The notes beneath the pieces are model-generated. The model saw nothing but the letters and a program-made list of their open reading frames with translations. It was not told the origin of the DNA and did no database searches. 64,000 nucleotides of DNA from Chondrosia reniformis (lineage: Eukaryota > Porifera > Demospongiae > Chondrillida > Chondrillidae): contig OX359189.1 of the NCBI GenBank assembly GCA_947172415.1, forward strand, positions 2,316,501 to 2,380,500, read 5' to 3'. Numbering within the stretch: the first letter of the stretch is position 1; each line of letters opens with the position of its first letter. A program made the position numbers and the translations under genes. Shown piece by piece: positions 17,249 to 59,496 of this stretch.

Positions 17249-17305
17249 TTTGTCTCGGTTAAAGGGATTTTCCCTCTTGCTATCGTTCGCGTGCACGTTT
17301 AAAAT
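17249..17305. promoter_or_regulatory. Bidirectional promoter between CHCHD7 and SETD7
   Basis: 57 bp between the two divergent start codons, GC-richer than the surrounding sequence and without a clear TATA box. It must contain, or be close to, transcription starts for both genes. Confidence 0.6.
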
Positions 17306-35680: not shown

Positions 35681-38600
35681 TTAGTCTACTTTAGCAATGA
35701 TGCTCAGTGCTCTGCAAACAAGAGCTACAGAATGAAGGGTTGCAATTTCTTGTCTCTGATCATCATCTACGCGATCTGTTGATTGGCCAAAAAAATTGGT
35801 TGGATGCTTTCCAGTTTTGTCACTGCCTGCATGATCGGATACTCCCTTCACTACAAGGAAACTATCCCGACGCATATCCTTAGGTAATTTAAGCTCTGAG
35901 ACTCTTGATTTATCCCATGATCGAAGTTCATGTGCAATACCACAGCCCTCCATTTCAATGCCAATCAGATCATAATTATGATAGCCCCTTAATTCATCAG
36001 CTGAATTCTCTTCAGCCATAACAGTATCACCAGAATAGATGCAGTCAGCCTTAGTAGTGTGTATATGATCTTGGCAATCCTGAGGCTGACCCAATCGCTG
36101 AAACCAAGTTTCATCCATGTCATAAGTATTAATATTTTTGAAGGACAGTTTCTTCCCTTTAAACTTGTTGGTGTAGCTCCCTGCTTTCTGAGATAGCAAG
36201 ACATTTCCTCGATAATTTGCATTTTGACTTTTGTCTTTTGAGCTACACCCACAACAGCCAACACAAAATATAATCTCAAGAGGCCAATTTCTGACATTTG
36301 CTACCTCTAATATGGCACGGACAGCTGTCCTAGCCTTATCTTTACCGTAAGAAGTACCGATTTTCATATGTACCACCTTGATGCTCCCAAAATTGATCAT
36401 GTCAAATGTCAAATTTCCAGCGTACTCTTGTTTCACTTCTACTTCTAGACCATTCAAGACTGGGTCATTCTTGTAGGTGTAGCTTTTCACCTTTTCATTT
36501 TTTATTTTGCTGGAAATTCCAAAGAAGTTTCTGACTGTTTCTCTTTCATTGCCATTAGCAGTCAGCAACACAACTTTTACATTTTCATTAAATGTACCAG
36601 AGGCTGTGAAAATAAATATTTATTACATATTTATATACAGCCACTGATATGCTAACTTAATGATTATACTAGAAACATTAAAAAATTCGACAAAAATGGT
36701 GATGATATGGGGATGGCATAAAAAGTACAGAAACAAGGAAGGATGTTACACAGTGAAGCATTAGCTGTGCATGAATCATATAAGCGAGGGTGTTACACCA
36801 ATTCCTACATACATTCAAGGCTTATCTCTGCAGCTGGTTTAACAGTTGCTGGATGTTTCTGAGAAAAAGAGTATAAAAGTACAATTAATATGCACTATAT
36901 TCCCAATCATGTATATATACAATGCATACTTCAAAATTGATACAGTTTAACAAAAGTTGGCAAAATCAGCCAAAACTATGTACAATATTTTGTTGGTTTG
37001 CTTTTAGAGCATATAATTGTGATTGATAAATTGGTTGGCAGTTTATCAGCTAACTGGTTATTTGGCTAAAAAGTCATATTTGAACCTTCTTTGATTCAAG
37101 AGCTGTCACTACAGTGACAAGTTGTTTAATGTAAATTGCTTTCTAAAATTATACAAAGATGGATTTGAAGAACACCATGGTGCATCAGATTATGCACAAA
37201 TCACAAGCATATTGACATGTACACATACGTATATATAGCACTTCATGTATCAGGGTACACTACATGTATATACGTAGATGCATACAGTTTGTACTAGTAT
37301 TAGACAGGCATTATTGGATTTTGACCAACCTTCGTCTTCTTAGTACGTGCATGAACAATTCCTCCTATAGAATATGTACACAAATACACTCACTCACATC
37401 AAAGTTGTACTCATGTTTAAAACCTGTATATGGGGCTAGTAAACAGGCAATTCAACTGGCTATTAATGTGTACATAGGATGAATATGAGTATACATGTAT
37501 ACATATACAAATAACATATCTGTATATGTACAAATAAATAAAAAACATTTATAAAGATAATGTTAGAATGTTGTGCTTGGACGCACCAAGCTGAAGTAGA
37601 AATGATGCACCCAAACACAGAGTGTATGGTTAAGTTACTTAGATTTCAGTGTATATGCAAAGTCTTATCATATAATCTTCCCCATTCATACCAGCCTTGG
37701 GCTGATGGGGCTATACCATTAATAATAATAATATAATGACTGTCCTGTTTCGATACTTTGTGCAGATGTATTAGTGAACACTTCCATTCCTACTTCTAAC
37801 ATTATTTTTATACAGTAAATGTTTTTTTATTTACTTGTACATATGGTTTACGTGGAAATTGTCCCAAGGAAATTAATCTACCAATATGAATTGAAGGGTT
37901 GAAAAATAATAGCCCAGTCCCTTACACAAGCCCAGTCTCCAATAAAGGCCCCGGTTCAGAGGGGTTTGAAAAATACAAGCCCCGGGCTTGTATTATAGAT
38001 AATATGGTATTTGTGCTATTCTGTATAATTTGTGAATGAAAGCTATTTTTGATATGTGTCCAATAAGGCCAATTTTATATTCAGGTTGGAAATGATCTCA
38101 GTGATGGAATTGTTTCCAGCATATATAAAACAGAAGAAGCAGGCATATACATATATGTGTGAACATACATACGTATCACTGTACGTAGAATCTGATTAAA
38201 TTGTGTATATTTTGGTTATAGAAAGTACCTTATCTCAGACTGCAGCTACGTAACTTTCACTAAGGGCATGCACACATGTCCTAACATCAAATCTTACCCT
38301 TAAGTAAGAAGTCATCTATCTTCTTAGCAAGTTTCTGGTGAGATTCTCTAGTAGAGTCTTCCTTTAGAGCTTCTGACATAGCTTGCAGTTTTTTAACACT
38401 GCCTTCACTAAACAAAATATCAAACCAGATATCAGCAGCTTCCTCAGGGGTTGGAGCAGCATTAAGACGAGAGCTGGTTCCTGATTTAATTGCTTCCATT
38501 CTAAGAAGAGAGGATGCTATACTTTTAACATCACAGAAGTCTCTCATGTACTTGTGAAAGGCAACATTTTTGTCTTTAAGGAACCTGCGAACATCATCTT

Positions 38601-40658
38601 CAGATAAATCTGGAGGAATGCAAGTATATGGATGTGTCATAATGTACACAATCAATAATTTTGGATGTTGGATATATACTGTAGTACTATGACATAACCA
38701 AAATATAAATTTATTTAATTGTGACACTATTGTATGTACTTGTTTATATATATATAGAATAAAATGGCTGCTAGCAAATTGTTTCCACAAAGAAGTCATG
38801 TACACAAGAGTATACATATGTAGAGGGAAATGTCATATAAAACTACATTTGTCCATACACATAGAAGCTGGGTCTATATAGTTTAAAGGGTTGAGATGTA
38901 AAACAGTTTTGACAAATATAGCATGAATGACAAAAGACATTAAATTGATTCTGGCATTATCATACGTATATATGTAAGTACCTGAGTTACTTTCTTCTTT
39001 ATCGGATTCAGAACTGATAGCAACAGATTTGCCTTGCTTGCTATTTTTCTTTGATTTACCTTGTAGTTCAATATATGTAAAACACAGTGACCAAGTTCTA
39101 TATATATAATAATTAATTACTTGTTTAGTAGCTCCCTCCAGTATCAATTAATCTACGTATATAAAATATCCTTCCCTCAACTTTGGGAGCATATATAATA
39201 CCAATCTCATTTTAAATTTATTAGCTATTTTAATCAGCATTGTACTTTGAAGTAATGATTAAAGTATTTGGATTTTTGCATAAATTTCATTTTGGTGAGC
39301 AACTTTAAAATTTAAAATTATATACATAACACAACGAAAATGAAAATGTTAATCAGCTCAGCCAATATTTTATAATATAAGTCACTATTTTCTCACCTTT
39401 GGTGTGCTTTAATGACTTAGAACACTTCTTCCTTTTAGGAGAAGGTGTGTCTTCATCTGATTCTGCAATAATTTTAAAAAGCACTGTATATATAACAATT
39501 TGCTAGGGCTAAGGGCATTTAATAATTAGCGGCCGTTTCAACCCTATTTAGGGTCTTTGTCAGTGGTGATATAATCAGAAGAAACTAACTCACAGAGAAC
39601 TATATAATCCATTAAATTTAATAAAATGCTTGTTGTCCACAATTAAGAAAGGAATTATCCCCAAATGAATGACTTTGTAATAATACAGCTATGCAAACAC
39701 ACAGTTACGCAGAGCTCTATGTGTATTGTGTATGACTAACCACTGCTACCATCCTCCTCAGGAGAGGGTGAGTGAGGCGGTATTCTCTTTCTTTTGGATT
39801 CTATTAGATACAGTACAAGTTATATTACTGAACCTGTCTTGTTAGGACTTTGAGTATTAATGGAAATATTAAATGTACAAAGATTGTTCTTACTTGGTTG
39901 GTGGGTCCGTGAGGTCTTCTTATCTTTCTGTTTCCTCTTGGATTTGGTACCTGTGGACAAGTGAAGAGTGTTTCCTTCATTACCCACTTCTAGAAACACT
40001 AACACAATCATTGTAAACTAACATTAGTTATATACTTAATGGAAAGTTTACAAGCAGTCATTATATGCTTTTCAGGACAATTCTCTTACATAACACACCA
40101 CTTCTTCTCATCAGACCAATCAGACAACCATTTAGTAATCAGTGACACAGCCTGTCATGGAAACTTCAAGGAATAGGGTCGGCCATTTTCCATATTATGA
40201 ATTTAAAATGTAAAGGTTTGCAGAGAGTATACATTATATGCTACTAAACCACTCTCACATTCTGAACTAAAGATGTCCTTTTCCAAGTCTACAGCTGCTC
40301 CTGCTTCTCCTCCTTTTCTCAGAGCAACAAATAGCTCACTCCATGTACCTTTAGTATCCTCCACATTCAAATCAACCCAGTGGAGAAGACATTTGAAAAA
40401 GGCTTCATTAGAATCACCAATGCTATTACGGAGTTCTGCATCACATTTCTTAAGTGATATTCCAAGATGGGACAACACCTCTTTCCATTTACCTAAATCA
40501 TTTAAACGCACTCTCAGTTTAGATTCAAATTTTGGATAGTCTACAGAAAGGGAGAGAGTATTTACACAGAGCACTATAAAATATAGAAAAGGAGATATCT
40601 CATTTATATAAAACACTTTAATTCATTAATTACCTCTGACTTCTGATTCCTTGTTCAT
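35681..40658 (-). CDS. Death domain / CARD-like / nucleoside phosphorylase-fold protein (8 exons)
   Basis: Minus-strand exons 40658-40634, 40540-40250, 39989-39894, 39800-39741, 39462-39397, 39059-38982, 38609-38298 and 36603-35681 give 1851 nt (616 aa); all introns are phase 1. Exon 2 (residues 9-105) is Death-like, with LGKWKEVLSHLGISLKKCD...ALRKGG. Exons 3-6 are a Lys/Ser-rich linker. Exon 7 (about 206-310) is helical; its second half (PEEAADIWFDILFSEGS) resembles a CARD. Exon 8 (about 310-616) is a PNP_UDP_1-type domain: KVVLLTANGNERETV at the start, VGCCG, then DLIGIEMEGCGIA and FLVVKGVSDHAG, the conserved base/ribose-binding elements. In fungi and invertebrates this domain occurs as the effector or sensor part of NLR-like immune proteins. 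A role in cell-death or immune signalling using a nucleoside/nucleotide reaction is inferred. No NACHT is present. The Death call is moderate, the nucleosidase call strong. Confidence 0.85.
36670..36800 (-). repeat. Partial copy of the MITE at 53500-53738
   Basis: Shares GGGATGG..TAAAAAGTACAGAAACAAG, GTTACACAGTGAAGCATTAG and TGCATGAATCATA with one arm of the palindromic element at 53500-53738. It lies in the last intron of the Death-nucleosidase gene. Confidence 0.7.
37529..37842. mobile_element. MITE with ACAAGTAAATAAAAAACATTT-type ends, copy 1
   Basis: Inverted ends (left CAAATAAATAAAAAACATTT, right AAATGTTTTTTTATTTACTTG) surround about 270 bp that resemble 40838-41112 internally (AAGCTGAAGTAGAAATG, ATGCACCCAAACA, GTTAAGT.ACT). 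It is non-coding and lies in an intron of the Death-nucleosidase gene. Confidence 0.7.
39530..39575 (-). repeat. Hammerhead-like hairpin element, degenerate
   Basis: Minus strand: CACTGACAAAGACCC, then TAAATA, then GGGTTGAAACGG. Stem II and GAAA are kept; the core reads CTGACAA, with the G of CTGANGA changed to A. Confidence 0.5.
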
Positions 40659-42877
40659 TGTATTTCAAGGAGAAGATCAAAATAACTTGGCGTTTACGTA
40701 TTTAACCAACCTAACCAATATAAGTATTTCTGTAGTTTATATACAGCTAGAGGAAGATTCTATACAAGTGGAAAAAGACATATGTCTTGAAAGTGACAGA
40801 TTAAGGAAAAGTAATTGTATGTGACTATATATATATATACAAGTAAATAAAAACATTTAAAAAATGAAATGAGAAGTAGGTACCTATCACATCGCACCAT
40901 GATGGCTGAAGTAGGGATAGTGCGCCCAAACATGGAAGTGATGTGTATTGTTAAGTCACTGAAATTTGAGGCAGTATATATTCCATTTGTATATTGTTAG
41001 CCTTATTATATGATCATTGTCTTGTTTCATTGCTTTTTCTAGATGTGATAGGTACTGTTGCAGGAACTGCCATCCCTACTTCTCATTTCATTAAATGTTT
41101 TATTTACTTGTAAGAAGAAGAAAATTGAGGAAAACCGGAAGTAGGCCTGAAACCGTTTTACAAACTTGGAGCCCTTATGCGCTCTTGAAAATAGCTTCCC
41201 TCAATTGAAATCGTATAAAAAAGACACATAACGAGTTTAAAAGAACTAAAAACGCATTCGCTGCCTACTTATAAGGTGTTAACCCGTAATAATACATTGA
41301 ATTCGGCAGCCATTTTTTTCGGGCCATCCCTACTTAGAGAGTACTACGGTACCGTACTCTCTGATAAATATATAGATGTGACAATAAGTGGTATGACCTG
41401 CGTGTTTGAGGTGTCCTGAAGAATGGGACTGTTACTGTGACAGACCAAGTGGTTTCCATGGCTACAGTTATCATGGCTACTATTACCATTGGTGCTGTAC
41501 TAGCATGCAGCTGGGTCCATACAGATGGAATTATTGCTATAAATAAATAACTAATTCCTAGTGACTTTGTGTGCTTACACTTTTGACAAAACTAATTTTA
41601 GTTCTGGAAGTGTAGGATACTTAATTTTCAATGCTCATAAACTGCATGCACTTATACGTACATCACACCACCTACTATATACATTCGCACACACATGCAT
41701 GGCTTCTGGTTTATAGACCATCCTGCCATTTTTCGGGCCATCCCTACCTCTCTGATATACGTAGCCGTATTGTTTGATTCATACATACAGTATATATGTA
41801 ATTATACATATACACACACGCAGAGATAAATACGTACCTCAGATTCAGTACAATAACTTAAGATACTTCCCAAAAAGTGTATCTACGTAAATTATATATA
41901 CCATTATGTAATAGTAATTATTAATCTATCATAATCACAGGTGTTTAACCTGAGAAAACGGCTATACATGTAGTCGATCTTCAGTAAATGTTTACCATAT
42001 AAGGAATAATTGTGTACTCGATCCAATTTTGATTGGAAACATTCAGCAAACTTACAAAGCTACGTACATACAGTATAGCTACTATGTGGTACATCATTAT
42101 CTTGTATTTTAAAAAATCTATAATAGTATGGGTATGGGTATGGGTATCTTATTTAAACTGGGGATGGCCACTAGCCATAGCCATAGTAAAGGTTTTTAAA
42201 TGATTTCAAAGGCATAACAAAATAATAGAAAAAGGACATGTATTTCTTTGTATTTAATATAACACTATAGCTGTCTGACAATTATTAATAGAGATTGGAA
42301 ACACTAACCAAATGTCTTTCATCAACAGCTTGCATACGTGAAGAATTTTATCTACTCCAAATATGGAAGTAATATTTATACATGAGTAGGAGTTGTGTAT
42401 ACAATATCTTATGAATATAATCAGTTGGATAACAGAGGAAAACCCTGGCAATTGAAGACATATATAATCTTAGTCTCTACTTGTATGACTTATATTTGAA
42501 AGTATTCTTATAATACTATTAAATGAATCAGAAAAGAGAACATTTTTATATAAAATACATACATATATATACACAGAGTCTCCAGTATTCACATGTAATC
42601 AGCTGTTTATTTATTGGTTATATGTGCTAACACTAATTGGTATTCAGGTAGCAGTCTCATTTACAGGGGCCAGAAGTATGGCTGCATGATATGACAGAAA
42701 GGGCCTATCCTTTTTATGACTATATCAAAACCGTATTGCAGTAAATATTGACTATTAAATTGGATCTGCTATTTTTAAGCTCCACCTCTTCCCAAATAAT
42801 GTACAGCCAATAATTTTGATATAAAAAGTAGTGCAAAATGTCAATAGAAATAAAATCCTGCCAGTTGCATTCAGGAA
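40659..42877. other. Repeat-rich intergenic region between Death-nucleosidase gene and GPN1
   Basis: 2.2 kb without a recognised gene. It holds the MITE at 40838-41112. At 41322-41365 there is a hairpin element (CCATCCCTACTTAGAGAG, AGTACTACGGTACCGTACT, CTCTGATAA) related to 54214-54250; a partial copy lies at 41740-41760. A small (GGGTAT)n-like run lies at 42128-42150. Confidence 0.55.
40838..41112. mobile_element. MITE with ACAAGTAAATAAAAACATTT ends, copy 2
   Basis: About 275 bp. The left end ACAAGTAAATAAAAACATTT is the inverse of the right end AAATGTTTTATTTACTTGTA, and GAAATGAGAAGTAGG / CTACTTCTCATTTC extends the inverted ends inward. Related to 37529-37842. No coding capacity. Confidence 0.8.
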
Positions 42878-45314
42878 CTAATTATCATCACCTAAAATAC
42901 AATGGAAGATAAAAAGTAAGATACAAAATATAAAAGTAAATAAATGTTTACCTTCATCATCATCTTCATCATCCTCAGATTCCATTCCCAAACTGATACT
43001 TACACCTGGAACTGGAACTTTGGTGTGGAGCTGCTCCATAAGAGGTACTTCATCTCCTTCCCTTACGTCCCTTTCAATCTTCCTTAACTGTTCCTCTCTC
43101 TTCTCCTTTTCCCTCTCCTCCTGTGATCAATAAACACAACAAGCTTGTAGACACATGACAATTAGCCATGTCTTCTCAATCTTACCTGTTCAGCTCTCAG
43201 TTTCTCCAAAGCTGGTAAGTAGGACCTGCCAATCCAGAAGAGTTTTGCAGTCATGTGACACATATGTACTTGCATGTATAGACCTATATCACTGTGTTTT
43301 CTTGTCATTTGCCATTTTAGTGAACATGTTACTACTACATACTGTTTACATCCATTACATGACACTAATTACTTAGTATATAATATAAGAGGGGAAAAAT
43401 GAATGGAGCATTGTCATGGCAATTGTAGCTCAGTGGCAGAGCACTGGAGGTAATAACTAGATGTTAGATTCTCAGCAATAATTCTTTTATGCTTTACCTC
43501 TATGTCTGATAATAATTCTGGTTTGATTATCACTTTGATTATTAACGTACTAACTTTTCATACTCTGTCACAGCTTCATCTACTTTATCAAAGAATGAGT
43601 CAATTCCTGCTCCAGTAACTGAGGACACGCCCACACAACGTAGGTTCTTGTAAAACTCATCTAATACCAGACTCATGGAGCGTGAGAGGTTGGATACATA
43701 TGATGTCTCCTAGCAACAGAGGCGACACAGATATGCAATACAAATACATGGTAACAAGCATTAATACAACTACGTATACTAGAGAACACCAGCTGGGTGA
43801 AGGGGAAACTACCTCAATGAAAGGGAAATTCCCTGAATGAAGGACAAACCTGTTCTAGAGCTGTCTGAAAAGCTTCAAAATCCTCCATCCAGTCTAAAGC
43901 AAAACTGCAGTCCACAATGTCTATCTTGTTGAGCACAACAATGAAGGGCAGTTTGGTCTTGTAGAGGATGCTGCAGGCATACAACATGTTGGACATGAAT
44001 GTGACGGGGCTCATGCATCTTGCAGTGTCCATCACGTAGACCACAACAGTCGGATGAGATGAAGCCTGTGAAGGAGGAGGAGAGAGTGCTACACTATTAG
44101 ATAGACCACAACAGTCAGATGAGATGAAGCCTGTGAAGGAGGAGGAGAGAGTGCTACACTAGTAGATAGACCACAAGATGGCCGCCCTTACCAGTGCCTC
44201 AGTAATGATGCTACCTGATGCAGACCAGGTGAACACTTCTATCTGGCCTGGAGTGTCAATAAGCACATAACTGGAATCTGTGATGCGCTTGTCTATAAAC
44301 TTCAAGACTTGATCAAACCGGGTAGCAAAGAGGTTCAAGGATGTCATAATACCTCCATTAGGACCAAGATTGTACTGCTTCATCACTTCCTTGTACTTGA
44401 CCGTATCACGTATATCTGAGGAGGCATACACATCAGTCACAAGACAAACATGTGATTATCATGTGACCTACCTATATTAGCAGGATAGTGCACTTCATAC
44501 ACATTAGTCACAAGACAAACATGTGATTATCATGTGACCTACCTATATTAGTAGGATAGGGCACTTCATAAACATCAGTCACAAGACAAACATGTGATTA
44601 TCATGTGACCTACCTATATTAGCAGGATAGGGCACTTCATACACATCAGTCACAAGACAAACATGTGATTATCATGTGACCTACCTATATTAGCAGGATA
44701 GGGCACTTCGTGCACTGCAGGGTCCAGGTTGACAACATATGGAGGTGCAGCTCGAGCATGTAGATATGCGGACAGCCTCTGTACAGTAACAGTGTATTGT
44801 ATAGAACATAATAATCTACAGCTGGAAGGAGTAATACCTGGGGAAATCCCTCCAATCTTACATTTTAATTGTTTAACAATAAACATAATTCTATGATATA
44901 TATAGTAATTCCTAAATGTAGATAGCTCTGCTAAATACCCCCAACAATATTAAGGCCGTACAGTAATCAAAAGAGGCTTTCCCTGTAATTAGGACACTTT
45001 AGTTGTCTTCAGATGTATGCAGATAATGGGCCTCCCGCATGCAATGGGGACATTTGATCACGTGATCGTAACATGGAGAGCCTCCATGAAGCACTAGCTA
45101 ACTATTTAATGAACCGTTATAAGATGGACTGTGTCCAAACCTGCATGAACGTAGTCTTGCCTGAGCCCGCCATTCCTAGACAAATGATACAGGCCCTCTT
45201 GTGGTAGCTGTTGTCTGATGTGCTTTCGCCTTCTGTTCCACTTTGCCCTTTTAAGCTTTCTTCTTTAACTGCTGAGTGATCGCTTTGATCTGGAATATCC
45301 ATGCATTCTGCCAT
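42878..45314 (-). CDS. GPN1: GPN-loop GTPase 1 (XAB1), 8 exons
   Basis: Minus-strand exons 45314-45141, 44778-44685, 44415-44192, 44065-43850, 43709-43555, 43225-43186, 43120-42952 and 42891-42878 give 1086 nt (361 aa), similar to human GPN1. The P-loop [11 protein letters not shown] is followed by YVVNLDPAV, the diagnostic GPN loop NLGPNGGI, the switch motif [30 protein letters not shown] (guanine specificity) and VSSVTGAGI. The C terminus is charged and ends in an acidic [19 protein letters not shown] tail. Family knowledge: GPN1 pairs with GPN3 for assembly and nuclear import of RNA polymerase II. The last exon is only 14 nt. Two introns carry tandem repeats copying an adjacent splice site (44041-44170 and 44429-44710). 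Confidence 0.95.
43423..43490 (+). ncRNA. tRNA-like fragment (possible tRNA-derived SINE or pseudogene)
   Basis: TGTAGCTCAGTGGCAGAGCA is a good tRNA A-box/D-arm. A downstream GATTCTCAGC is a poor match to the B-box. No clear acceptor stem or CCA context is visible, so a functional tRNA is unlikely. It lies in a GPN1 intron. Confidence 0.35.
44041..44172. repeat. 65-bp tandem duplication containing a GPN1 3' splice site
   Basis: CCACAACAGTCGGATGAGAT at 44041 recurs almost unchanged at 44106. The unit holds the acceptor and first codons of exon 44065-43850, so an intact second copy of the acceptor sits in the preceding intron. Confidence 0.88.
44429..44710. repeat. 71-bp tandem repeat (about 4 copies) containing a GPN1 5' splice site
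   Basis: CAGTCACAAGACAAACATGT at about 44433, 44504 (variant), 44575 and 44646, each followed by TGTGACCTACCTATATTAG. The last copy overlaps the end of exon 44778-44685 and its donor (AATATAG then GTAGGT on the minus strand); the others repeat this exon end inside the intron. Confidence 0.88.
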
Positions 45315-45600: not shown

Positions 45601-48600
45601 CTATGTATCAATTTTCTCTTTGATTGTTCCTTTCTCTTCAACTGAAGGGCTAGGGGAGGGCTGGGAAGTTTGGAGTTTTGCTTCTATATACGTACATGAT
45701 TAAAAATAACTAAAATTAAATACTATAGTCAGTCCAAAATCAAACTGTTAATTAGGATATTGGATTCACAGTATTTCTTTGAGTAATCATTGTAAGAGAT
45801 TCTTAGGAAATACATCTTATACCGTTTTCACATGGGCATCGAAAGTGGGTCGAAACCGAGTCGAACCCGAGTTAAATCGTTCACAAGAAACCGCAAAAGC
45901 GGGTCGAACCCGGGTTAGCGAAGCGAGTTCGACCCATGTACGAAGCAGGGTCGAACCCAGTTTAGCTCATTACGAAAGCGAGTTAAAGATGGCGGAGCGA
46001 GGACGAACTTGGACGGACGACGAAGTGACTGCGTTATTAAGCATTTGGAGCGAAGAATCGATACAGCAGCAGCTCTTAGGTGCTGTTAGGAATGTTGTAC
46101 CTTTTAGGCAGATAGCTGAAGAGCTGGAAAGGAAAGGATTTCATCGCGATTTTAAGCAATGTCGTGATAAAATAAAAGCGTTAAAGAAAACCTACAAATC
46201 GGCCATTGATAGGCTTCGAACTAGTGGTATTGGTGTCGAATCAGATGATGACCTTGAAGATCACAACATTTATGTGAACTTCAAGTGGTTTTGGGAGCTT
46301 CACTTTGTAATGAGGAGGAGAGCAGTAGTGAATCCCCCTTCATTGCTAGATACCTCCCAATTTTCCAGCCAGCTGTCACCAGGGGGAAGTTCATTTGATG
46401 GAACAGAGGACACAACCATATTGCAGACTCCAGCAGCCAGTCCCATAGCCACTCAGCAGCCTGAATCATCAATGCAACCGGGGCCATCTACGCAACCGGG
46501 GCCATCCACGCAACCGGGGCCATCCACGCAAACGGGGTCATCCACGCAACCGGGGCCATCCACGCAAACGGGGCCATCCACGCAACCGGGGCCATCCACG
46601 CAAACGGGGCCATCCACGCAACCGGGGCCATCCACGCAACCGGGGCCATCCACGCAACCGGGGCCATCCACGCAAACGGGGCCATCCACGCAACCGGGGC
46701 CATCCACGCAAACGGGGCCATCCACGCAACCGGGGCCATCCACGCAATCGGGGCCATCCACGCAATCGGGGCCATCCACGCAACCGGGGCCATCCACGCA
46801 ACAAAGACCATCCAAGAAGCGCAAGCTTACAAAGTTAGACAGGGTGGAGAAGTCTAACAAAGTTATGATGGAGACATTTGTTGCTGCACAAGAAAGAAGC
46901 CGGCAGGAAATGATGAAGTTGGAGCAAGACAGGATGAAATGGGAACAAGAGCAAGCTAAGAAAGCAGAAGAGAAGGAAGAAAGGTTCATGAGCTTAATGA
47001 AGGACATGCTAACAATGCTAATGCCAGCACCCCCACCAGTTATGCCACATTTGCCAGTGCCACATCCAGTGCCTGGTGTGCCCTGGCAGCTGCAGGATTA
47101 TCCACCAGGTCCTATGATGGGTTATCCGGCCGTTAATGATCATGCAGATGATGGTGAAGATGAAGAGTAGTTGTAATGTTAGCATTGTGACTAGACTAGT
47201 TTAATTTACAATACTTTGCCTTATATTCGTTTATATTAATCATTACTAAACAGTGTCAAAGTAGTCACAAAGGGCTTCCCTAATGTTCTGCCCAGTTGTA
47301 CTGACTGTCGCAGCAGAAGATGTTGATACATGCGTTATTTCTTCTCTTTCTATATTAGATATCCTCTGTATCCACTCTTCTTCACATGTATCACCTTGTA
47401 TTTCACACAGATTGTGCAATACACAACATGCAGTCACTAGAGTAGGTACTGACTTAATGTCATTATCATTTCGTTTCATGAGTGACCTCCATCTCCCCTT
47501 CAGTCGCCCAAAAGCATTTTCTACTACCACACGTGAACGACTTAATTGGTAGTTAAATTTTCTCTGCTTTCTTGTTAAACCTGTATCAGAGAAAGGTTTA
47601 AGAAGCCAACTTTTAAGTGGGTAGGCAGGGTCACCCAAAATAACCAAAGGAATGGGTGTGCCACATAATGTTCTTGTCCAGTTAGGTAAAAAAATTTCGC
47701 TTTCACATTTTCTGTAAAGTCTAGAGTTAGCCAACACCCTGGCATCATGCACACTACCTGGCCAACCAACATAAACATCCAAAAATCTGTAATCATGGGA
47801 TACTAAAGCTTGAAGTATCGTAGAATGATACCCTTTCCGGTTATAATAATCCAATGGATTTTCCTTTGGAGCAATGATAGGTATATGACTTCCGTCTATG
47901 GCACCAATGCATTGTGGAAATCCCCATTTACTGAAGAAACCATCAACTATATTTCTCAACCCTTCCCCTGTTGGGATATCAATATACATTGGTGCCATAT
48001 GTTGAACGATAACACCACATACATCATGTACAACACGACATACTGTTGAAATGCCAACTCCAAATAAGTGGCTAATGGTACGATATTCTATATTGGTTCC
48101 TAGTCTCCATAAGCAAATGGCAAGCCTTTGTTCAACAGTAAGGGGTTTCCTAACAACATGTTGTCTTTGGAGGTAAGGTTTAAGTTGTTGGCAAAGGAAT
48201 TGAAACGTACTCCTAGATATTCGAAAATTTTGCTTCCATTCTTTGTCACTCCAGTTTCCAGCAATGTTCTCCAAAAAAGATTGATTCCTTCTTTTACTCC
48301 AATGCATTCTTCTGCTCACGCATGCAGACGAAACACGATGCAGTATAAATCGATAAAAAATTGCTCTCTCTTCTTCTTGAACAGCATTAAAACGTAGAAT
48401 ACGTGTTCTTCTAGCGATATTCCTTGCCATCAGTGAACGTTTACGTTCCATACGTCTTCTTCGTAGCCACAATAGAACGAATACAACGATAAAAGCAAGC
48501 CGAAAATTTTCGTACGCCATCTTGATCTGATACGCTACACGAGTAAATACTACTAACAAAATCGTCTTGTGAACGGAAACCGAGTTCGACCCGGATTAAG

Positions 48601-51600: not shown

Positions 51601-54600
51601 GAATTATTCAATTCTAACTTGACATTTTTCAACAATGAATTCTTGCTTAATGATTCTTCTATAGCTACTGAGTCAAATTTGTTAAATGATGTTGCCTGTA
51701 TGTAATAGCAAAACATTGTTACACATGTAGTGAATTTCATAAAATTAAATGCTATATGTACATATGTGTAGGAACAGTATGGTAACAAAAATGCTGTGTA
51801 GTATATGGATATGTAATATCACCCAGTAGATAATTCATTGTGACAGATACGTACTAGCAGATATTATAGCTAATTGAGTACAATAAACTCCTCTCACAAA
51901 AGGTAAAGAAAGTTATCATAAAATTGAAAGCTAACTATTACTTTAAATATTTATCATGTTTGATAGAGTAGAGGTTCATCGCTACATTGAATATATGGCA
52001 TTTAATTATTGAGCTTGCCGTAGCGTTATGAAACAAGAATTTCAAGACGTTTTGGTCTGTGGACCTTCATCAGTTGAATCGCCATGTTTATTATAATATA
52101 TTTTGCCCTTAATACTATAAAACATCCCTCCACCTTAGTTAAATACGTACATGGGAGTAACAATGAAACAAACCTCCTTGGATAAGCTGAGCTGCCTTTT
52201 AGCGAGGTAACATAGAACTTCAGCACAATGGAGAGGTGCCACACTCAATTCCAGAGAAGATATATGTGAGGCCGTGGCTCCAAATGGTAGACTCAAAGAG
52301 TCCACTTCAGTTTTTCCTAAGAAAGAACATATAAAATTATTAAGAACATACAGCCTACATAATTAACTTCAGATTTCCAACAAGTCAAGTCCAATCATTG
52401 GTCAGATAAAGACATATACATGTATTGTACGTACGTACATACAATACTATGTATATACTATGTACAGTGGGGATACGAGTACTCGAAGGGCACGCGAGTA
52501 GCACGCGTTTAAATGGTTTATTACTTTTAATCCCCACTGTACATATGTAGATTTGGTTGAGTTATGTACCTCTGTCATATGCTGTAAATGATACTTCATC
52601 TACATTTGTGTTACTCAATGAACCAATTAAACAAGGTCTAAAGAGACCAGAAGCATACTGAAATTTCTCCAAGCTGAATTTCTTTAAAGATTTATTATCT
52701 TGCAATAGTTTACTTAGTTGATCCTAAACACAGTAAGAAAAATTAAACTGTTATACAGCTGAAGTGAAAATAATTATGTATATACACTATTTAGCTGTAA
52801 ATATAAATTTGAATAGGTACGTATGATTAAAATTAAGAAAATAACAATATAAACAATCACTGTTGCCAGCTTTAATATAGTTAATTTCAATGCATGCAAA
52901 TGCCCCTCCAGCATGTTGTGCTATAAACACTTAAACATCTGCATGCTTAAGGTGCATTTGCATTGAAAACTAACCAATGGTTGCAATTTTTTGATATTTT
53001 TGCTTGCTGTTGGTTCTTTGTACAGAACTTCAATTAATGACAATTTATGAGAAACTTGAAGTACTGCTAAAAGATACTCTGCGGAAACATCCTTCATTTT
53101 TAGGTGCTGAATACTTGAAGAAGTATATTCACCAAGACATTTTTGAAATTGGGTGAAATCTATATAAAAGATGTTTATGCATTAGTGTATGGTTGCTTAT
53201 TGAAGCTAAAATAGTGCAGATGCAGTTGAATTCCTTAGGAATGATTAAAAAATATGTTTACTGTGTGGAACATGTTACATTGTTGAGTAAACATTTTTTG
53301 TGTTTTAATCTTTGCAATAAAAACTTTTGCACAGGCTTTATGTTGGTCTAGTACGTATTAATATAACATTGGTTTTAAAGACTTGTCATCAGCTCAATTT
53401 GTGTGAAGAGATAGCTAATTTTCAGCTTAAAAAGCTCTTTAAAGAGAGTCCGAGTGTCTGCCATATTGTTGACAGATATAAATAAATAAATACATATATT
53501 AAACAATAAAAATTTTCTACAAAAATAGTGAAGATGTAGGGATGGTACAAAAAGCAGAGAAACAAGAAAGGGATGTTACACAGTGAAGCATTAGCTATAT
53601 ATGCATGAATCATACAACACCCTTGCTTGTAGGATTCATGTATAGCTAATGCTTCACTGTGTAACATCCCTTTCTTGTTTCTCTGCTTTTTGTACCATCC
53701 CTACATCTTCACTATTTTTGTAGAAAATTTTTATTGTTCTCTAGTTCCTGTACTTTTTATGGAGCATAAGCTAGGGATTCGTTGTATTTTAAACCACTTT
53801 GGTTTTGCAATTTTCGACTGAATATGACGTCATTAAAATGGCGAATTTATTGAGGTCTTTACTCTGGGGCCATGAAAACTGTCATATTCAATAATAGCGT
53901 TATCGCTCTCGCTTCTACAAAAGAATACAGCTCGGAAAATTTAGAGTATTTTCGCTTAAGAAGTAGTCCGAAGGCTTATTTCGTTTTTTAGTTACAGCGG
54001 GCGAAGAAGATGAAGAAGATGATGAAGAAAACGAAAATGGGAGATTTCAAAGTTCGTTCATTTGCCAACGATACACGGTCGCTTGCCTTCAAGGCCAATT
54101 TATAGCATGGCTGTTCTATATTTAACTCTACATAGTCTCGTTTCGGCAATTTTCAGCCTATTTCGGAATTTCGCTCCTATACCAATGTATGTGGAAAACG
54201 AAACAACCAGTACCATCCCTACATAGAGAGTACTACCGTACTCTCTGATAATGAACAGGAAGACATATTTTAAAAAGTAAAAACAATATAGGGGTGGGTG
54301 CCTTTGACACCTGATTTTTTCTTTTTCATCTTTTAAAGACATACATAGAACTCACCTGACTTTCCTAATGATTTGAGTGACAATGTTTTCAGATTCCTGC
54401 TTGTTAAGATGGCTGGAAGGGCAAGTTCCACTTGAATTGGGGATCTTTTAGCTGTAAAAGAAAGGATTTCGGTGTTACTGCTAAGATGGAGACAATAACC
54501 CAGGGTTTCTGTCTCGTACGCTGAAGAAGATGAAAATGTTAAATCCTTAAACATGTCATCTGTGAAGACTGCTTTAGCTAAATCTTCATTTTCAGCTTCA

Positions 54601-57600
54601 AAAAGGGAGATCATCAGCAGTTGAGGTAGAGCAGCCTTTTCCTTTTTTGAATGTTGATGCATGTTCTTAACTAATTTCAAAGGGTCAAAGCACACTAGCT
54701 TTGTAAATCCACAGTAGAACTTCCACACCTCCACCATCTCTGGCCTACCAAAATGCTCTTTCCACATCTTCTCCTGCTCAGTTGGACTCTGCTTGGCAAT
54801 GTGGAGTGCGGCCAGTGCCTCTTGTACTGTTTTGTGAGTAAACATGTACAGCTTGACGGGAGCTGCAAAGAAGGCATCCACAGATTCTGAAAAGAGAAGC
54901 TCATAAATGCTTCCATTGAAAACACTGTCTCTCAGTGAATCATTTAAATCGGCATCTGATATGACAAGCTTAAGATCTATGCAAAATTGGTAAGATATTT
55001 CGCAAAGTTTGTCAAATGCTGGGAAGACATCACTTGGAATATTGCTCAAATCAGTGACAGACACAGTTGCTTGAGGATCAATCTTGAGGTGGGAGTGGTA
55101 AAGTTGACCACAAATGTATTTCTTGTATATACCACCCATAGTACGTGGAAGACCATCCTCTCCCATGTACTCCTGCACCTTACACACTATCTTAAGGACC
55201 ACAGGAACACAACACATTCCACGAACAGCAGGAAGTGACAGCAATCGATTCTTTAGAATGTCACCCAGTTTTGCTTTATCAGTGAAATAGTCCTTAATGT
55301 ATGCATTTATCTTATTAATTTTAAAACCAAGAATTTCTACATGCACACATGACCCTTGTAATCTGGTGAGGAGGTCTAACTTGGTCACTGGTCGAGAGGT
55401 GACAATTACATCACACTCACTCAAGTAAGCTGAAGGTGCTGAAAGGAGGCTCTTTAAAAAGAAGCTCTGTTTCACTTCTTCTGATGCCTCATCATACCCA
55501 TCCAGGATGAACATGACACCTCTTCCATTTCTCAACTCTATAGTCTCACTTACTATTTCAGCCTTCTCGGTTGGCTGATTGGGAGGAAAAAACTTTTGCA
55601 GCAAATGGCATAGTTTGAACTCTTCTTTCATCCAGAGAGAGGCTTCACGAAGTGGAAATAGGATGACTAGATCATAGGATTGTCCCAGTTTTCTAGATAA
55701 AATATCTAGGCAAAATTTTCTGGACAAAGTGGTTTTACCACAACCAGGAGCTCCACTGATAATAATACGTTTGCCAGATTTACTCTCATCATAATTAAGA
55801 ATTCCTTCATATTTAATTGGTTTAGATTTCTCATGAATATCATCAATTCCATCGTAAGCTGCTTGAAGAAAATTGCGAAGATCTCTTTCTAGCCGAATGT
55901 ATTTTGGACGAGAGACTATAGCTAACTCTATAAAGTTCATATCAGGAAAACGAGCATCACCAGGTACAACCTTCATCCGAGTATAGCCCTTCTCCAAACA
56001 TGAATTGAAAAGCTCGATTACCTGTAGGAAATACACATACAATCATTATAATAGCTAACTATTTGAGAATCTACATTAGTAAATAAGACCATTCATTGAT
56101 CTAAAAACTTATAAAATTCTCTAGCAGCACACAAAGTAGAAGCCTATACTTGTTAAGAAGTGAGATGCAGTCACCAGCATATTGAGCTCATCCTATATGT
56201 TATACCAAAACTTACGTACTTTATTCTCTGGAAGATTACTGGAAATAGCGTCCCACAGGTTGCAGCTATTGTCTGAATCATCTACTGTACATATAAGAGA
56301 GAACACATTCGATATGTTATTATGTTCATATATCTAGCAGGCTTGAATGAAGCATGTAGTAAATAACAGGTTTTAGGAACTGAAAATCATTATCAACATG
56401 CTTCATAGTGATAACATACTATATATCTATTTCACATTAGCTGCCAAACTCAAAAATACAATTGTGGCAGATTATCCAGGTTTTAATGTCTACATATAGT
56501 ATCCTCACACCCAATGATAAAAAAGTACATTGGTAAAAAAACAACATACAGTTACACTCTTACTTGATTGGAAAGTGCAGCTAACAAAAGTGTGAACTAA
56601 CTTTTAGCTGGCTTAGTAAATAGCTGAGTATCTTGATTTAACCCTGCCTGCTTGGAACAAGTACCTTCTATTACATTAATGATAGAGATATAATGGTAAC
56701 ATTGCATTGCATACAACATACATACATATGTAAACAGTACTATTTACTTGATTTGAAATCATCAAGTGAGGACTGTCTTTTAGCTGATTTGGTAGCTAGT
56801 GGATTAGTTTGAATTTCTTTTGAGTTAGTGCCTGCAATGAGAAGATACTGCAAATTTGATCCTCTAATAACATGCATGACATTACATTGTTATACGTACC
56901 TTTACCTTTATACTTGCACTTTTTGGTTGACCTTGTGGCTTCCTTTGGTGACCTTTTAGAACCTACACATAAACAAAGCTTAATTGCTGTCTGCTTAGGT
57001 CTTTTACTAAAATTTATGTTACAGAGTGATATATTACTACAATTTTGCATACAGCAAGATTCCAATCTAAATTATGTAGTAACATGTCTATATAGCATTA
57101 TTTACTTGATTTGGGAACTTCAAGTATGGACTGACTCTTAGCTGGCTTGGTAAATAGTGGACTAGTTTGATTTTTCTCTGAATTAGTGCCTACAATTTAT
57201 GAAAAGATTGAATATTTATATCACCATACAGCCAAAAACAATCATTGGTTGCCAGCTTAAATTTAGGGATTTGGATCAAGATGAGATCTGATCCAGCTGC
57301 TAGCTGGTTCAGTGTAATGTACATACAAGGTACTATCTCAACAAAAAGACACATAACATGACATATACATACGTTTATACTTGCCCTTCTTGGTTGGCCT
57401 AATGGTAGCCTGTGGTGATCTTTTAGAACCTGCACACAAACAAAGCTTAATTACCATCTGCTTAGGTCTTTTACTAAAATTTATGTTACAGAGTGATATA
57501 TTACTACAATTTTGCATACAGCAAGATTCCAATCTAAATTATGTAGTAACATGTCTATATAGCATTATTTACTTGATTTGGGAACTTCAAGTATGGACTG

Positions 57601-59496
57601 ACTCTTAGCTGGCTTGGTAAATAGTGGACTAGTTTGATTTTTCTCTGAATTAGTGCCTACAATTTATGAAAAGATTGAATATTTATATCACCATACAGCC
57701 AAAAACAATCATTGGTTGCCAGCTTAAATTTAGGGATTTGGATCAAGATGAGATCTGATCCAGCTGCTAGCTGGTTCAGTGTAATGTACATACAAGGTAC
57801 TATCTCAACAAAAAGACACATAACATGATATATACATACGTTTATACTTGCCCTTCTTGGTTGGCCTAATGGTAGCCTGTGGTGATCTTTTAGAACCTGC
57901 ACACAAACAAAGCTTAATTACCATCTGCTTAGGTCTTTTACTAAAATTTGTTACAGAGTGATATAAAAAAATGTACTTCTATATATCCTACAAATGAACT
58001 AGCCATATACATTTATGTCCTGCTTGACTAAAGAAAGAAGTCTTGTGCAATTCTGATACCATACATGCCTGAGATGTATCAGATATGGTGGCATTAATTG
58101 AAAGAGCTGGTTTTTTAATTGAAAAAAATCTGGCTTAAGTTCCTCCAATGTAACACTTTATATCACATATACATATATACGTACATATGTATACATGTAC
58201 CAAAATTACCTAAAGAATGTAAACCATGTGCCTCTTTTAATTCATTAGCAAGGCTCTTCATCTCAAGACCAGGTTGTTCAAGCTTCTCACAGAAGTCCTT
58301 CCAAGTTGGATGTACAGTCACCTCCAACCACTTGTCAAGTATCATGATACACTTATCCTCAGGTGTTCCATTGCCTGCTAGAATGCCTTTAGCATAATCC
58401 TTAATTCCCAGTGCTACTCCCAGCGAAAGTAACTTATGAGATAACTTTGTGGAGTAAGGGAACAAGTTTTGAATCGTTAAAACATGGCTTTGAACATCTG
58501 AATGAAATATAAAAATGCTGCATGTATATACATATACATATGAACTCATTTCCAATACGTATTTACAAAGTCATTTATAAAAGTTAAATAATATGTAATT
58601 AAGCAACAATATGCCTAAACGTATATATGTGTATATATTGGTATGCCTTTCAGATGAAAAAGTGTATTGCTTCTTGGTAAACATTTTAGTAACAACTTTC
58701 CAGACCCTGTCTTGCCAACAGTGACATCTTCAATAAAAATGGAGGTGAGATAGCGGTCTGGGTTATGCAAGACTAGTGGAACATAGGATGCAGCTTTAAG
58801 TGTACAATATATGCATTCAATCACAGATACAGGATGAGCATAGACCCACCCACCAGCCCTGTTACTAAATATCAGAAGTACGTACGTATATCCAGCTATA
58901 GCTTAAACTCAGTGGCAAGTAAAACCAGCACTACAGACAAACAGTAAGTTTGGACTGACCCTCAGATCTATTGGCTACCGAAGATAAGTGGCACAAGCTG
59001 TACCTGTAACTGGGACCAAAATATTCAAGACTTTATAACTTACATACCTTCTACGTATATGTAAACCAGTTTATAAAATGGTTTGAGCCATTTACATGTT
59101 GAAAGTTAACTGTACAGGGTCGGAAACTAAACTGTCATGAAAATGCAGATTTAGAATTTAACTTAGTCATTAATTAGCCTTTGGTTGTAAATCAATAAAT
59201 TGAATAAATGTCGTCTGTACTATTGAAGTACTTTCAAGAGCAGCAATCAATAACTGAAGGGGAAGACATTCTTTCAGAGCAATTTAATCATGATGATGAT
59301 GATTAAATTCTGATGATAAGAAAGAAAAAGAAGTTAATTCACAGGGTCTAGATAACAATACTTAGGAAGGACCCCTGGCCGCCCGGGATCTTTTTACTTC
59401 TTCCCCCATATATACTGGAAATGCCACTGAAAGTTATATACCTCTACTGCTATCGCTATCTTTCAGAGTGACCATGGATCTTGTATCTGTGTTCAT
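45601..59496 (-). CDS. NLR immune receptor: Death - linker - NACHT - LRR (21 exons)
   Basis: Minus-strand exons: 59496-59442, 58497-58210, 57896-57840, 57656-57573, 57429-57373, 57189-57106, 56962-56900, 56831-56748, 56667-56602, 56284-56220, 56021-54356, 53159-52975, 52723-52570, 52316-52174, 51695-51518, 51444-51233, 50191-50005, 49887-49718, 49496-49419, 48959-48761 and 45683-45601. Sum 4158 nt, about 1385 aa, in frame. Residues about 19-115 form a Death-like domain (TWKDFCEKL...LANELKEAHG). Seven short Lys/Ser/Thr-rich exons make the linker. NACHT has Walker A GAPGCGKTT (about 391-398), Walker B FILDGYDEA (about 472-480) and VIVTSRP; winged-helix-type helices follow. Exons from 53159 onward encode LRR-like repeats, alternating phase 0 and 1. 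Family knowledge: cytosolic sensors that oligomerise and signal through Death-fold contacts; sponges carry expanded sets. Exon 1 was chosen on phase and is tentative. The final intron holds the Harbinger element. Confidence 0.9.
45989..47170 (+). CDS. Harbinger Myb/SANT-like DNA-binding protein
   Basis: 393 aa from the ATG at 45989 (MAERGRTWTDDEV). Residues about 5-110 form a Myb/SANT-like trihelix domain: RTWTDDEVTALLSIW, IAEELERKGF, QCRDKIKALKKTYK. Next comes an array of six-residue PSTQPG/PSTQTG units (about 160-275), then a Lys/Glu-rich coiled coil (about 290-345) and a Pro-rich end. Family knowledge: this protein works with the nuclease for nuclear import and binding of subterminal transposon DNA. 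The array is likely a flexible spacer whose length can drift. Confidence 0.9.
   Translation: MAERGRTWTDDEVTALLSIWSEESIQQQLLGAVRNVVPFRQIAEELERKGFHRDFKQCRDKIKALKKTYKSAIDRLRTSGIGVESDDDLEDHNIYVNFKWFWELHFVMRRRAVVNPPSLLDTSQFSSQLSPGGSSFDGTEDTTILQTPAASPIATQQPESSMQPGPSTQPGPSTQPGPSTQTGSSTQPGPSTQTGPSTQPGPSTQTGPSTQPGPSTQPGPSTQPGPSTQTGPSTQPGPSTQTGPSTQPGPSTQSGPSTQSGPSTQPGPSTQQRPSKKRKLTKLDRVEKSNKVMMETFVAAQERSRQEMMKLEQDRMKWEQEQAKKAEEKEERFMSLMKDMLTMLMPAPPPVMPHLPVPHPVPGVPWQLQDYPPGPMMGYPAVNDHADDGEDEE
46474..46806. repeat. 18-bp coding minisatellite in the Harbinger Myb gene
   Basis: About 18 copies of CCATCCACGCAACCGGGG, one unit per PSTQPG, with C/A and C/T changes giving PSTQTG and PSTQSG variants. The frame is kept because 18 is a multiple of three. 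Long antisense open frames here (46453-47007, 46488-46811) are artefacts. Confidence 0.95.
47246..48520 (-). CDS. HARBI1: HARBI1-type DDE nuclease (Harbinger transposase)
   Basis: 424 aa from ATG 48520. It has a basic N terminus with a hydrophobic stretch, then the HTH-like region TVEQRLAICLWRLGT...SHLFGVGISTVCRVV. The DDE domain follows: CIGAIDGSHI (first Asp), YYNRKGYHSTILQALV, DVYVGWPGSVHDARVL, LGDPAYPL (second Asp), VVENAFGRLKGRW (Glu) and CCVLHNLCE. All three catalytic acids are present and the frame is unbroken. It cuts and inserts the element at TWA sites. It belongs to the transposon and is not a domesticated host copy. Confidence 0.95.
   Translation of the reverse strand: MAYENFRLAFIVVFVLLWLRRRRMERKRSLMARNIARRTRILRFNAVQEEERAIFYRFILHRVSSACVSRRMHWSKRRNQSFLENIAGNWSDKEWKQNFRISRSTFQFLCQQLKPYLQRQHVVRKPLTVEQRLAICLWRLGTNIEYRTISHLFGVGISTVCRVVHDVCGVIVQHMAPMYIDIPTGEGLRNIVDGFFSKWGFPQCIGAIDGSHIPIIAPKENPLDYYNRKGYHSTILQALVSHDYRFLDVYVGWPGSVHDARVLANSRLYRKCESEIFLPNWTRTLCGTPIPLVILGDPAYPLKSWLLKPFSDTGLTRKQRKFNYQLSRSRVVVENAFGRLKGRWRSLMKRNDNDIKSVPTLVTACCVLHNLCEIQGDTCEEEWIQRISNIEREEITHVSTSSAATVSTTGQNIREALCDYFDTV
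50715..51120. repeat. Dispersed repeats in an NLR intron
   Basis: 50720-50800 (ATAATTGCACTGAG, GGCTATGATGATAAGTAAAT, CCACAGTCTAAT) matches 16690-16815. A second partial copy lies at 51053-51120 (AATTAATTGCACTGATGC, GCAAAGGATATG). No coding sequence; it lies between LRR exons. Confidence 0.6.
52030..52082 (-). repeat. Hammerhead-like hairpin element, degenerate
   Basis: Minus strand: CAACTGATGAAGGTCC, loop ACA, GACCAAAACGTC. The CTGATGA core and stem GGTC/GACC are intact; GAAA is changed to AAAA. It lies in an NLR intron. Confidence 0.5.
53500..53738. mobile_element. Palindromic MITE (about 240 bp)
   Basis: Left arm AACAATAAAAATTTTCTACA and right arm TGTAGAAAATTTTTATTGTT, with long inverted arms (GATGTAGGGATGGTACAAAA, AGAAACAAGAAAGGGATGTT, ACACAGTGAAGCATTAGCTA) around a short centre near 53615-53635. 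Nearly perfect, so likely young. It lies in the intron after the NACHT exon; 36670-36800 is an older partial copy. Confidence 0.85.
54214..54252. repeat. Short hairpin element, CCATCCCTACATAGAGAG type
   Basis: AGAGAGTACTACCGTACTCTCT is a perfect-arm hairpin preceded by CCATCCCTACAT and followed by GATAA. The same string occurs near 41322-41365. It may mark the end of a longer element that starts near 53740. Confidence 0.55.
56955..57960. repeat. 467-bp tandem duplication copying NLR linker exons
   Basis: Landmarks recur with spacing 467: exon starts at 56962, 57429 and 57896, and exons 57189-57106 and 57656-57573. The two downstream units are almost identical over the whole 467 bp; the third, partial unit (56962) is more diverged. 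Each unit carries two complete linker exons with splice sites, so each duplication adds 47 residues in frame. Confidence 0.95.
58640..58838 (-). other. Unassigned open frame in NLR intron 1
   Basis: About 66 codons, open from a possible acceptor near 58862, containing YVPLVLHNPDRYLTSIFIED and VGKTGSGKLLLKC. No GT donor in phase with the Death exon was found. The G-K-T-G-S-G-K string looks like a P-loop but lacks the final Ser/Thr and its context. It could be an alternative first exon, a decayed gene piece or chance; function unknown. Confidence 0.3.

Follow-up and report, generated by a model that had tools for sequence, protein, structure and literature searches.

The gene described here belongs to the sponge Chondrosia reniformis and appears to join the N-terminal module of NLR-type genes to an enzyme. 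It lies on the minus strand at 35681-40658 of a 64,000 nt stretch of contig OX359189.1 (the window, to which positions refer unless a contig is named). DNA homology identifies exons 1-7 as the N-terminal module of local NACHT genes, from whose 5′ ends they were duplicated. By profile and alignment, exon 8 is a distant member of the PNP_UDP_1 superfamily, in its MTAN-type branch, and this PNP exon occupies the place where NACHT would stand. We favour a two-part effector, in which an NLR-type N-terminal module is joined to an MTAN-type nucleosidase and would be recruited by receptors, and we give this reading a little under an even chance. For the origin of the module it relies on DNA homology, and for the catalytic-type residues on alignment.

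Gene Model and Domain Order

The rebuilt gene model has eight exons and encodes an open protein of 616 aa. All seven introns are of the GT-AG type and all seven are in phase 1, which agrees with a preliminary description made from the window sequence. A nearer acceptor of exon 3 (39894-39950) is equally legal and leads to a protein of 603 aa. From the N- to the C-terminus, the protein consists of a Death-type domain, a charged linker that is rich in Lys, Arg, Ser and Glu (exons 3-6), a CARD-like helical segment and an MTAN/PNP-type nucleosidase domain of 300 aa from the phosphorylase superfamily.

Exon 1, 40634-40658, minus strand: start codon, 25 nt, phase-1 donor; part of the NLR-derived duplicate, whose start is at about 40681
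Exon 2, 40250-40540, minus strand: Death-type domain
Exon 3, 39894-39989 (short form 39894-39950), minus strand: Lys/Arg-rich linker
Exon 4, 39741-39800, minus strand: charged linker
Exon 5, 39397-39462, minus strand: charged linker; weak DNA match to the cluster of NACHT genes (74-76%)
Exon 6, 38982-39059, minus strand: charged linker; DNA match to the cluster (72-83%)
Exon 7, 38298-38609, minus strand: helical, tentatively CARD-like domain
Exon 8, 35681-36603, minus strand: MTAN/PNP-type nucleosidase domain and stop codon
Segment with homology to the 5′ part of the cluster NACHT genes, 38023-40681, minus strand: covers exons 1-7 together with portions of the introns
Dispersed repeats in intron 7, 37498-38012, no strand assigned: begin where the NLR-type homology ends; putative fusion point

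The exon structure is real: the exons are not a product of chance, since copies elsewhere in the genome reach 91% protein identity. No NACHT match was found in the 616 aa protein, and none of the NACHT places of the genome falls inside the gene. The combination of a Death-type domain and a nucleosidase without NACHT in one gene model, as claimed in the preliminary description, was confirmed. Whole-genome searches covered 117,379,552 bases in 15 contigs. For this assembly, a genome of 117.37 Mb with 14 chromosomes plus the mitochondrion and HiFi reads at ~70x plus Hi-C are given (PMC12181767).

Exons 1-7 Resemble the 5′ Part of NACHT Genes

Close copies of exons 1-7 cluster at C1:2.02-2.25 Mb, 0.1-0.33 Mb away and on the opposite strand (in the DNA homology search of the gene region, 40 of 1630 candidates were scored). 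A search for other genes sharing the first exon and the Death module had been proposed in the preliminary description, and it was in this cluster of NACHT genes that they were found. On the protein level, exon 2 is 76-91% identical to eight of nine cluster copies and 57% identical to the ninth, and exon 7 is 87-91% identical to three copies. Compared to the copy at C1:2075515, exon 2 differs in 17 of 291 nt and in 9 of 97 aa, while 17 of 309 nt differ between exon 7 and the copy at C1:2026468. DNA similarity extends through the exons into parts of the introns. Identity to the cluster is 80-87% for exons 1-2 including the intron, 94-96% for the block of exons 3-4, and for exon 7 92% with its flanks and 80% over a longer stretch. 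Homology ends at about 40681 on the 5′ side and at 38023 in intron 7, where many-copy repeats start.

In the cluster the copied exons lie before NACHT exons, while in the window gene the PNP exon follows instead. This order was also seen across the genome: NACHT follows on the same strand at a distance of up to 6 kb at 9 of the 21 best Death-exon places (best 21 of 29, E up to 4.4e-6) and at 30 of the 150 exon-7-like places (150 scored of 342 candidates), and at none of either does it lie upstream. Both counts include the window gene, and 101 of 139 NACHT candidates were scored. Behind the three close copies of exon 7, NACHT follows after 1.4-2.8 kb; in the window the PNP exon follows after 1.7 kb. 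As the copies at these listed places precede NACHT exons, exons 1-7 are an NLR-type N-terminal module. For the copied exons 2 and 7, dN/dS values of 0.48 and 0.52 were calculated (17 changes each); these few changes hint at constraint on the protein level.

The preliminary description had also linked the gene to NLR genes. This link is closer than was claimed, with exons 1-7 copied from NACHT genes, but the partner cluster is distant and the NACHT gene of the window itself carries another N-terminal domain. This difference, together with a search of its surroundings that gave no exon-7-like frame, led us to reject that gene as the source of the module. The idea that a promoter was copied together with the module is likewise unsupported, as homology stops 23 nt before the start codon.

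Two further observations concern this region. The block of exons 3-4 with its intron (39739-40022) occurs with 94-96% identity in the 11 places listed, two of them shorter and one standing alone at C9:3752247; gene conversion or a mobile unit is a possible cause of this higher identity. Just upstream of the gene, at about 40831-41372, lies a dispersed foldback-like repeat with 166 matches in the genome.

Death-Type and CARD-Like Domains

According to the preliminary description, exons 2 and 7 should score as Death-fold domains in profile searches. Exon 2 matched a leave-one-out Death profile (E 0.0017 among 2637 frames), while Pfam Death (PF00531) matched it under the cut-off (E 0.025, 15.1 bits versus 22.6). 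A frame at L043:7601-7903, which is 51% identical to exon 2, also stays under this cut-off with Pfam Death (3.2e-4, 21.2 bits).

Exon 7 agreed with a CARD only weakly. A profile of its family had BCL10 CARD structures as top matches in the PDB, with weak E values of 0.032-0.12, and Pfam CARD (PF00619) matched 2 of 11 family members (best 0.0023), the exon of the window not being among them. A model predicted from the single sequence showed six helices with low confidence (pLDDT 62.9); with this model, Foldseek returned nothing at E≤0.001 and no CARD among 12 weak matches. We therefore call the segment CARD-like in a weak sense, as far as profiles and model go. An assignment as TRADD-N was rejected, since no profile match was obtained in the full protein (E≤10) or in the exon 7 family (E≤1); the model is all-helical, at low confidence. 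Domains resembling exon 7 occur in at least 150 places of the genome, and a few of them sit inside single open frames of about 1560-2340 aa (e.g., C2:9481862, C2:9497248 and C6:1558563).

Exon 8 Encodes a Putative Nucleosidase

The prediction of a PNP_UDP-type domain in exon 8 was borne out, although the single exon matches PNP_UDP_1 under the cut-off (E 0.0028, 17.5 bits versus 25.1). The exon occurs in 22 places of the genome, and 19 of these were aligned; two others, L037 and L046, were left out as duplicates of kept rows, and C12:6288397-6289238 was omitted since its frame is split (L023, L027, L041). PNP_UDP_1 matched 7 of the 19 members at E≤0.01 (best 4.5e-5). A profile of the 19 rows found MTA/SAH nucleosidases in the PDB (best 6.5e-5), and the NCBIfam MTAN model matched 16 of 19 members at E≤0.1 (best 1.6e-6), the window exon reaching 16.5 bits against a cut-off of 169. 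A structural model built from five sequences (pLDDT 45.7, pTM 0.52) ranked MTA/SAH nucleosidases first in a fold search of the PDB, which lends the assignment weak support. A phmmer search of the PDB with the PNP exon gave no matches, and a plasmid search with it gave none either.

Catalytic-type residues of the 616 aa protein are Glu329, Glu528 and Asp566. In exon numbering, E13, E210 and D250 are present in 19 of 19 rows and E212 in 18 of 19. The catalytic residues of E. coli MTAN are Glu12, Glu174 and Asp197. The family alignment matches the stretches of E172-M173-E174 and D197 of that enzyme; the correspondence to E12 relies on an alignment of bacterial relatives together with reading by eye. 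With these residues in place, N-glycosidase activity is predicted.

A pattern scan of 84,980 prokaryote genomes yielded four relatives from 167 candidate stretches. In one of them the PNP domain is fused to a caspase-type domain, and another adjoins a CAP12/Pycsar-type TIR gene. The Glu, EMEG and Asp positions are invariant in all four, which suggests that the sponge family descended from a pool of bacterial conflict nucleosidases. With the sponge profile, by which they had been found, the four relatives score 40-58 bits, E. coli MTAN 18.5 and DeoD 3.4. At residues 109-113, the exon 8 family has GCCGC, with three cysteines in 19 of 19 rows, where the bacterial relatives have GIAGG or GIAAG. 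Because of this replaced loop, the substrate preference cannot be assumed.

The likeness to bacterial defence nucleosidases, which the preliminary description had noted, held insofar as defence models do match; these matches turned out to be unspecific. The PADLOC model for the CBASS PN-superfamily effector matches housekeeping E. coli MTAN at 1.7e-15 and 10 of 19 family members (best 2e-5), while the window protein gave no match. PDC-M60C of PADLOC matches E. coli MTAN at 9.2e-12, the window protein at 6.7e-5 and 18 of 19 family members (best 6.9e-12). Since the housekeeping enzyme matches better than the window protein, we rejected the PADLOC matches as proof of a defence-type enzyme.

The PNP Exon Family in the Genome

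The 21 other PNP places are 32-54% identical to exon 8 over full-length matches. They account for 24 matches, since two of the places gave two partial matches each. The survey for death-fold exons covered up to 10 kb of sequence around these places. A Death-like or CARD-like exon was present 1.2-5.4 kb upstream on the same strand at 10 of the 21. Altogether, 13 death-fold-like matches lie near PNP places, all on the PNP strand and three of them downstream. For the death-fold profile, the sequences of five of these 13 had been picked by eye; leave-one-out tests support four of the five, and L033 fails (E 4.5) despite a Pfam Death match of 1.2e-4. Among the other upstream exons scored with Pfam, Pfam Death matched L031 (1.4e-6), L040 (0.018) and, weakly, L043 (0.12); neither Pfam Death nor CARD matched L029, L030 or either L036 frame. 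On C6, two copies have an exon-7-like (CARD-like) frame upstream of the PNP exon at a distance of about 1.7 kb, close to the spacing in the window. A phase-1 acceptor was found near the start of the PNP exon in all 16 copies examined, and 11 have other candidate AGs. At L043:4450-7903 (C1:3.27 Mb), a PNP exon lies between a Death-like frame and another Death frame, the latter of the same subfamily as in the window, with all three on one strand.

Among close PNP pairs (dS<0.22), dN/dS exceeds 1 in 20 of the 25 listed; these pairs are not independent, and the window exon is too distant to be in any of them. In six pairs hand-chosen from 171, the pooled dN excess was marginal (p 0.043). No stop codon was observed in these six, compared to about 11 expected without selection, a zero that is biased by the omission of the split-frame copy. 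Substitutions are fewest at residues 0-29, 90-119 and 270-299 (~5-6%), intermediate at residues 180-269 (9-11%), which contain E212 and D250, and densest at residues 30-89 and 120-179 (13-21%). The fast change in recent duplicates (L028-L045), with frames open and catalytic-type residues kept, possibly reflects an arms race.

Proposed Mechanism and Alternatives

In the two-part effector that we propose, the module was duplicated from the 5′ end of NACHT genes and would have been linked, through intron 7, to the exon of the nucleosidase. Upon activation, a receptor with this module would oligomerise, and its module would nucleate a homotypic death-fold assembly that recruits the nucleosidase protein. 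Clustering may then activate the enzyme, which would cleave a purine nucleotide; the analogy to bacterial and fungal PNP effectors makes ATP or dATP the most likely substrate. This cleavage would stop the infected cell. The joined transcript, the recruitment, the activation, the substrate and the outcome are all predicted steps. A wider version, which we consider doubtful, holds that an early animal has a two-component NLR-nucleosidase system in which the module of the receptor was copied onto an enzyme that cleaves ATP/dATP, in which inflammasome-like death-fold assembly triggers nucleotide depletion, not caspase or gasdermin activity, and in which counter-defence keeps the enzymes under diversifying selection.

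Several observations weigh against the two-part effector. The higher score of the bacterial relatives is biased, since they were found with the sponge profile itself, and the defence models fail to separate defence from housekeeping nucleosidases. The CARD fold of exon 7 has weak support, and several of the 10 upstream death-fold exons were recognised with custom profiles. The NACHT frame of the window has a phase-0 acceptor, so that a clean phase-1 swap of NACHT for PNP is unsupported. The NLR-type homology breaks off within intron 7, where dispersed repeats begin, and exon 8 might therefore be part of something else; the junction of exons 7 and 8 is a prediction of the gene model; and of the 16 other PNP copies examined, 7 might start at an in-frame ATG that lies just upstream of them. 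The last three points favour an explanation in two unrelated pieces, in which exons 1-7 are the remnant of a truncated receptor 5′ end that a duplication left behind, while exon 8 ends a different transcript, whose first exon escaped recognition. We regard this as unlikely. No in-frame ATG of exon 8 precedes its first active-site-type Glu (Glu329), so the exon needs an upstream exon, and the donor of exon 7 and the acceptor of exon 8 agree in phase 1. Furthermore, exons 1-7 stay open with dN/dS around 0.5 in the two exons tested, and the two C6 copies keep the exon-7-like frame at about the same distance from PNP.

NLRs sense with their C-terminal part and signal with their N-terminal one. The enzyme of the window protein is placed C-terminally, where NLRs carry their sensor, which is a further point against an effector role. 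It leads to a serious alternative that keeps the NLR logic: the nucleosidase could be a sensor or bait in the sensor position, where a microbial factor would be bound by it or would attack it, with the Death/CARD-like half as output. The fast change of close PNP paralogs, with its excess of pairs above a dN/dS of 1 and its two dense regions, would fit such a bait. A pure bait, however, has no need of the catalytic-type residues that are kept, and the dN excess is marginal; we hold this explanation to be quite improbable. A similarly low probability is given to a role in metabolism or regulation, in which a nucleosidase of the MTA/SAH or another type would tune purine or methylation metabolism in signalling without killing. 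Among solved structures and curated models, MTA/SAH nucleosidases come closest, and in C. elegans a purine nucleoside phosphorylase reportedly regulates the intracellular pathogen response. Against this role, the family evolves fast and occupies 22 places, frequently in the vicinity of death-fold-like exons, which is unlike housekeeping enzymes. In addition, the genome has further PNP_UDP_1 genes elsewhere, which look by eye like MTAP and PNP; the two pieces of them that were scored on the sponge profile fall below zero.

Relation to Known Systems

The kind of system is known, and the variant appears to be new. Rousset et al. (2023, Cell) are said to describe immune ATP nucleosidases and to include eukaryotic proteins of immune architecture. 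Such nucleosidases, among them CBASS effectors and Detocs (PMC11249213, PMC10197012, PMC9966839), share with the sponge protein the PNP/MTAN-type domain, the Glu/Asp catalytic-type set and the fusion to signalling domains. The sponge protein, for which ATP or dATP is a predicted substrate, differs in its GCCGC loop. A link between the PNP_UDP domains of fungi and bacterial ATP nucleosidases has been drawn (PMC10197012, PMC12881547), and a fungal STING-PNP fusion was reported (PMC12424679).

Fungal NLR and PNP_UDP proteins share amyloid motifs and act in a two-component manner from neighbouring genes (PUASM, HRAM/NLR12; NWD2/HET-S principle; PMC9815663). Here, too, one signalling segment is common to an NLR and to an enzyme that is encoded separately. 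In the sponge, by contrast, the shared segment is a Death and CARD-like module that was duplicated with its introns and is N-terminal on both proteins, and the partner genes lie 0.1-0.33 Mb away. In Amphimedon, proteins that combine Death-like domains and TRADD-N with a variable C-terminus, sometimes a PNPase (Kaur et al. 2021, PMC8195603), resemble the Chondrosia protein as sponge proteins with an N-terminal death-fold, a C-terminal PNP-type enzyme and a lineage-specific expansion. The Chondrosia protein lacks a TRADD-N match, however, and its N-terminal module is that of NACHT genes. With the Death-NACHT-LRR receptors of sponges (NLRD, Dysidea avara; PMC12909245), the Chondrosia gene has in common that it shares its N-terminal module with NACHT genes of its own genome; unlike them, it has neither NACHT nor LRR. 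Neither this gene nor a fusion of an animal NLR module to a nucleosidase was found in the open-licence literature of PubMed Central, subscription papers being outside the search.

If the proposed reading is true, the gene represents an animal counterpart of the fungal and bacterial sensor-effector pairs with a common signalling domain, and its DNA still records how the module was copied. Nucleotide cleavage would then join the outputs of animal death-fold assemblies, and whether animals use ATP-degrading immune effectors could be tested directly in a sponge for which a chromosome-level genome and public RNA reads are available.

Neighbouring Genes in the Window

Two frames of a neighbouring gene lie outside the gene described here:

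NACHT frame of the neighbouring gene, 54336-56042, minus strand
Frame upstream of this NACHT frame, 58166-58570, minus strand: Death-like by a custom profile, of a subfamily that differs from exon 2

The preliminary description had placed an NLR at a distance of 5 kb. This did not hold: the NACHT frame is about 14 kb from the gene start. Frames at about 49-53 kb look LRR-like by eye and, if counted, may bring the NACHT gene to 8-9 kb; the one tested (52924-53181) gave no Pfam family match. With these frames, the neighbouring NACHT gene would cover 48.7-58.57 kb of the window on the minus strand. Its upstream frame (58166-58570) has no Pfam match and resembles a frame upstream of the C12 PNP paralog in L030.

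At 45752-48595, a Myb_DNA-bind_4 frame (plus strand) and a DDE_Tnp_4 transposase frame (minus strand), both long and open, belong to an element that is presumably Harbinger/PIF-like. Other neighbours with Pfam matches are a SET7-type methyltransferase (17303-18484), an ATP_bind_1 (GPN-type) gene (43814-44949) and a sulfotransferase (62007-62270).

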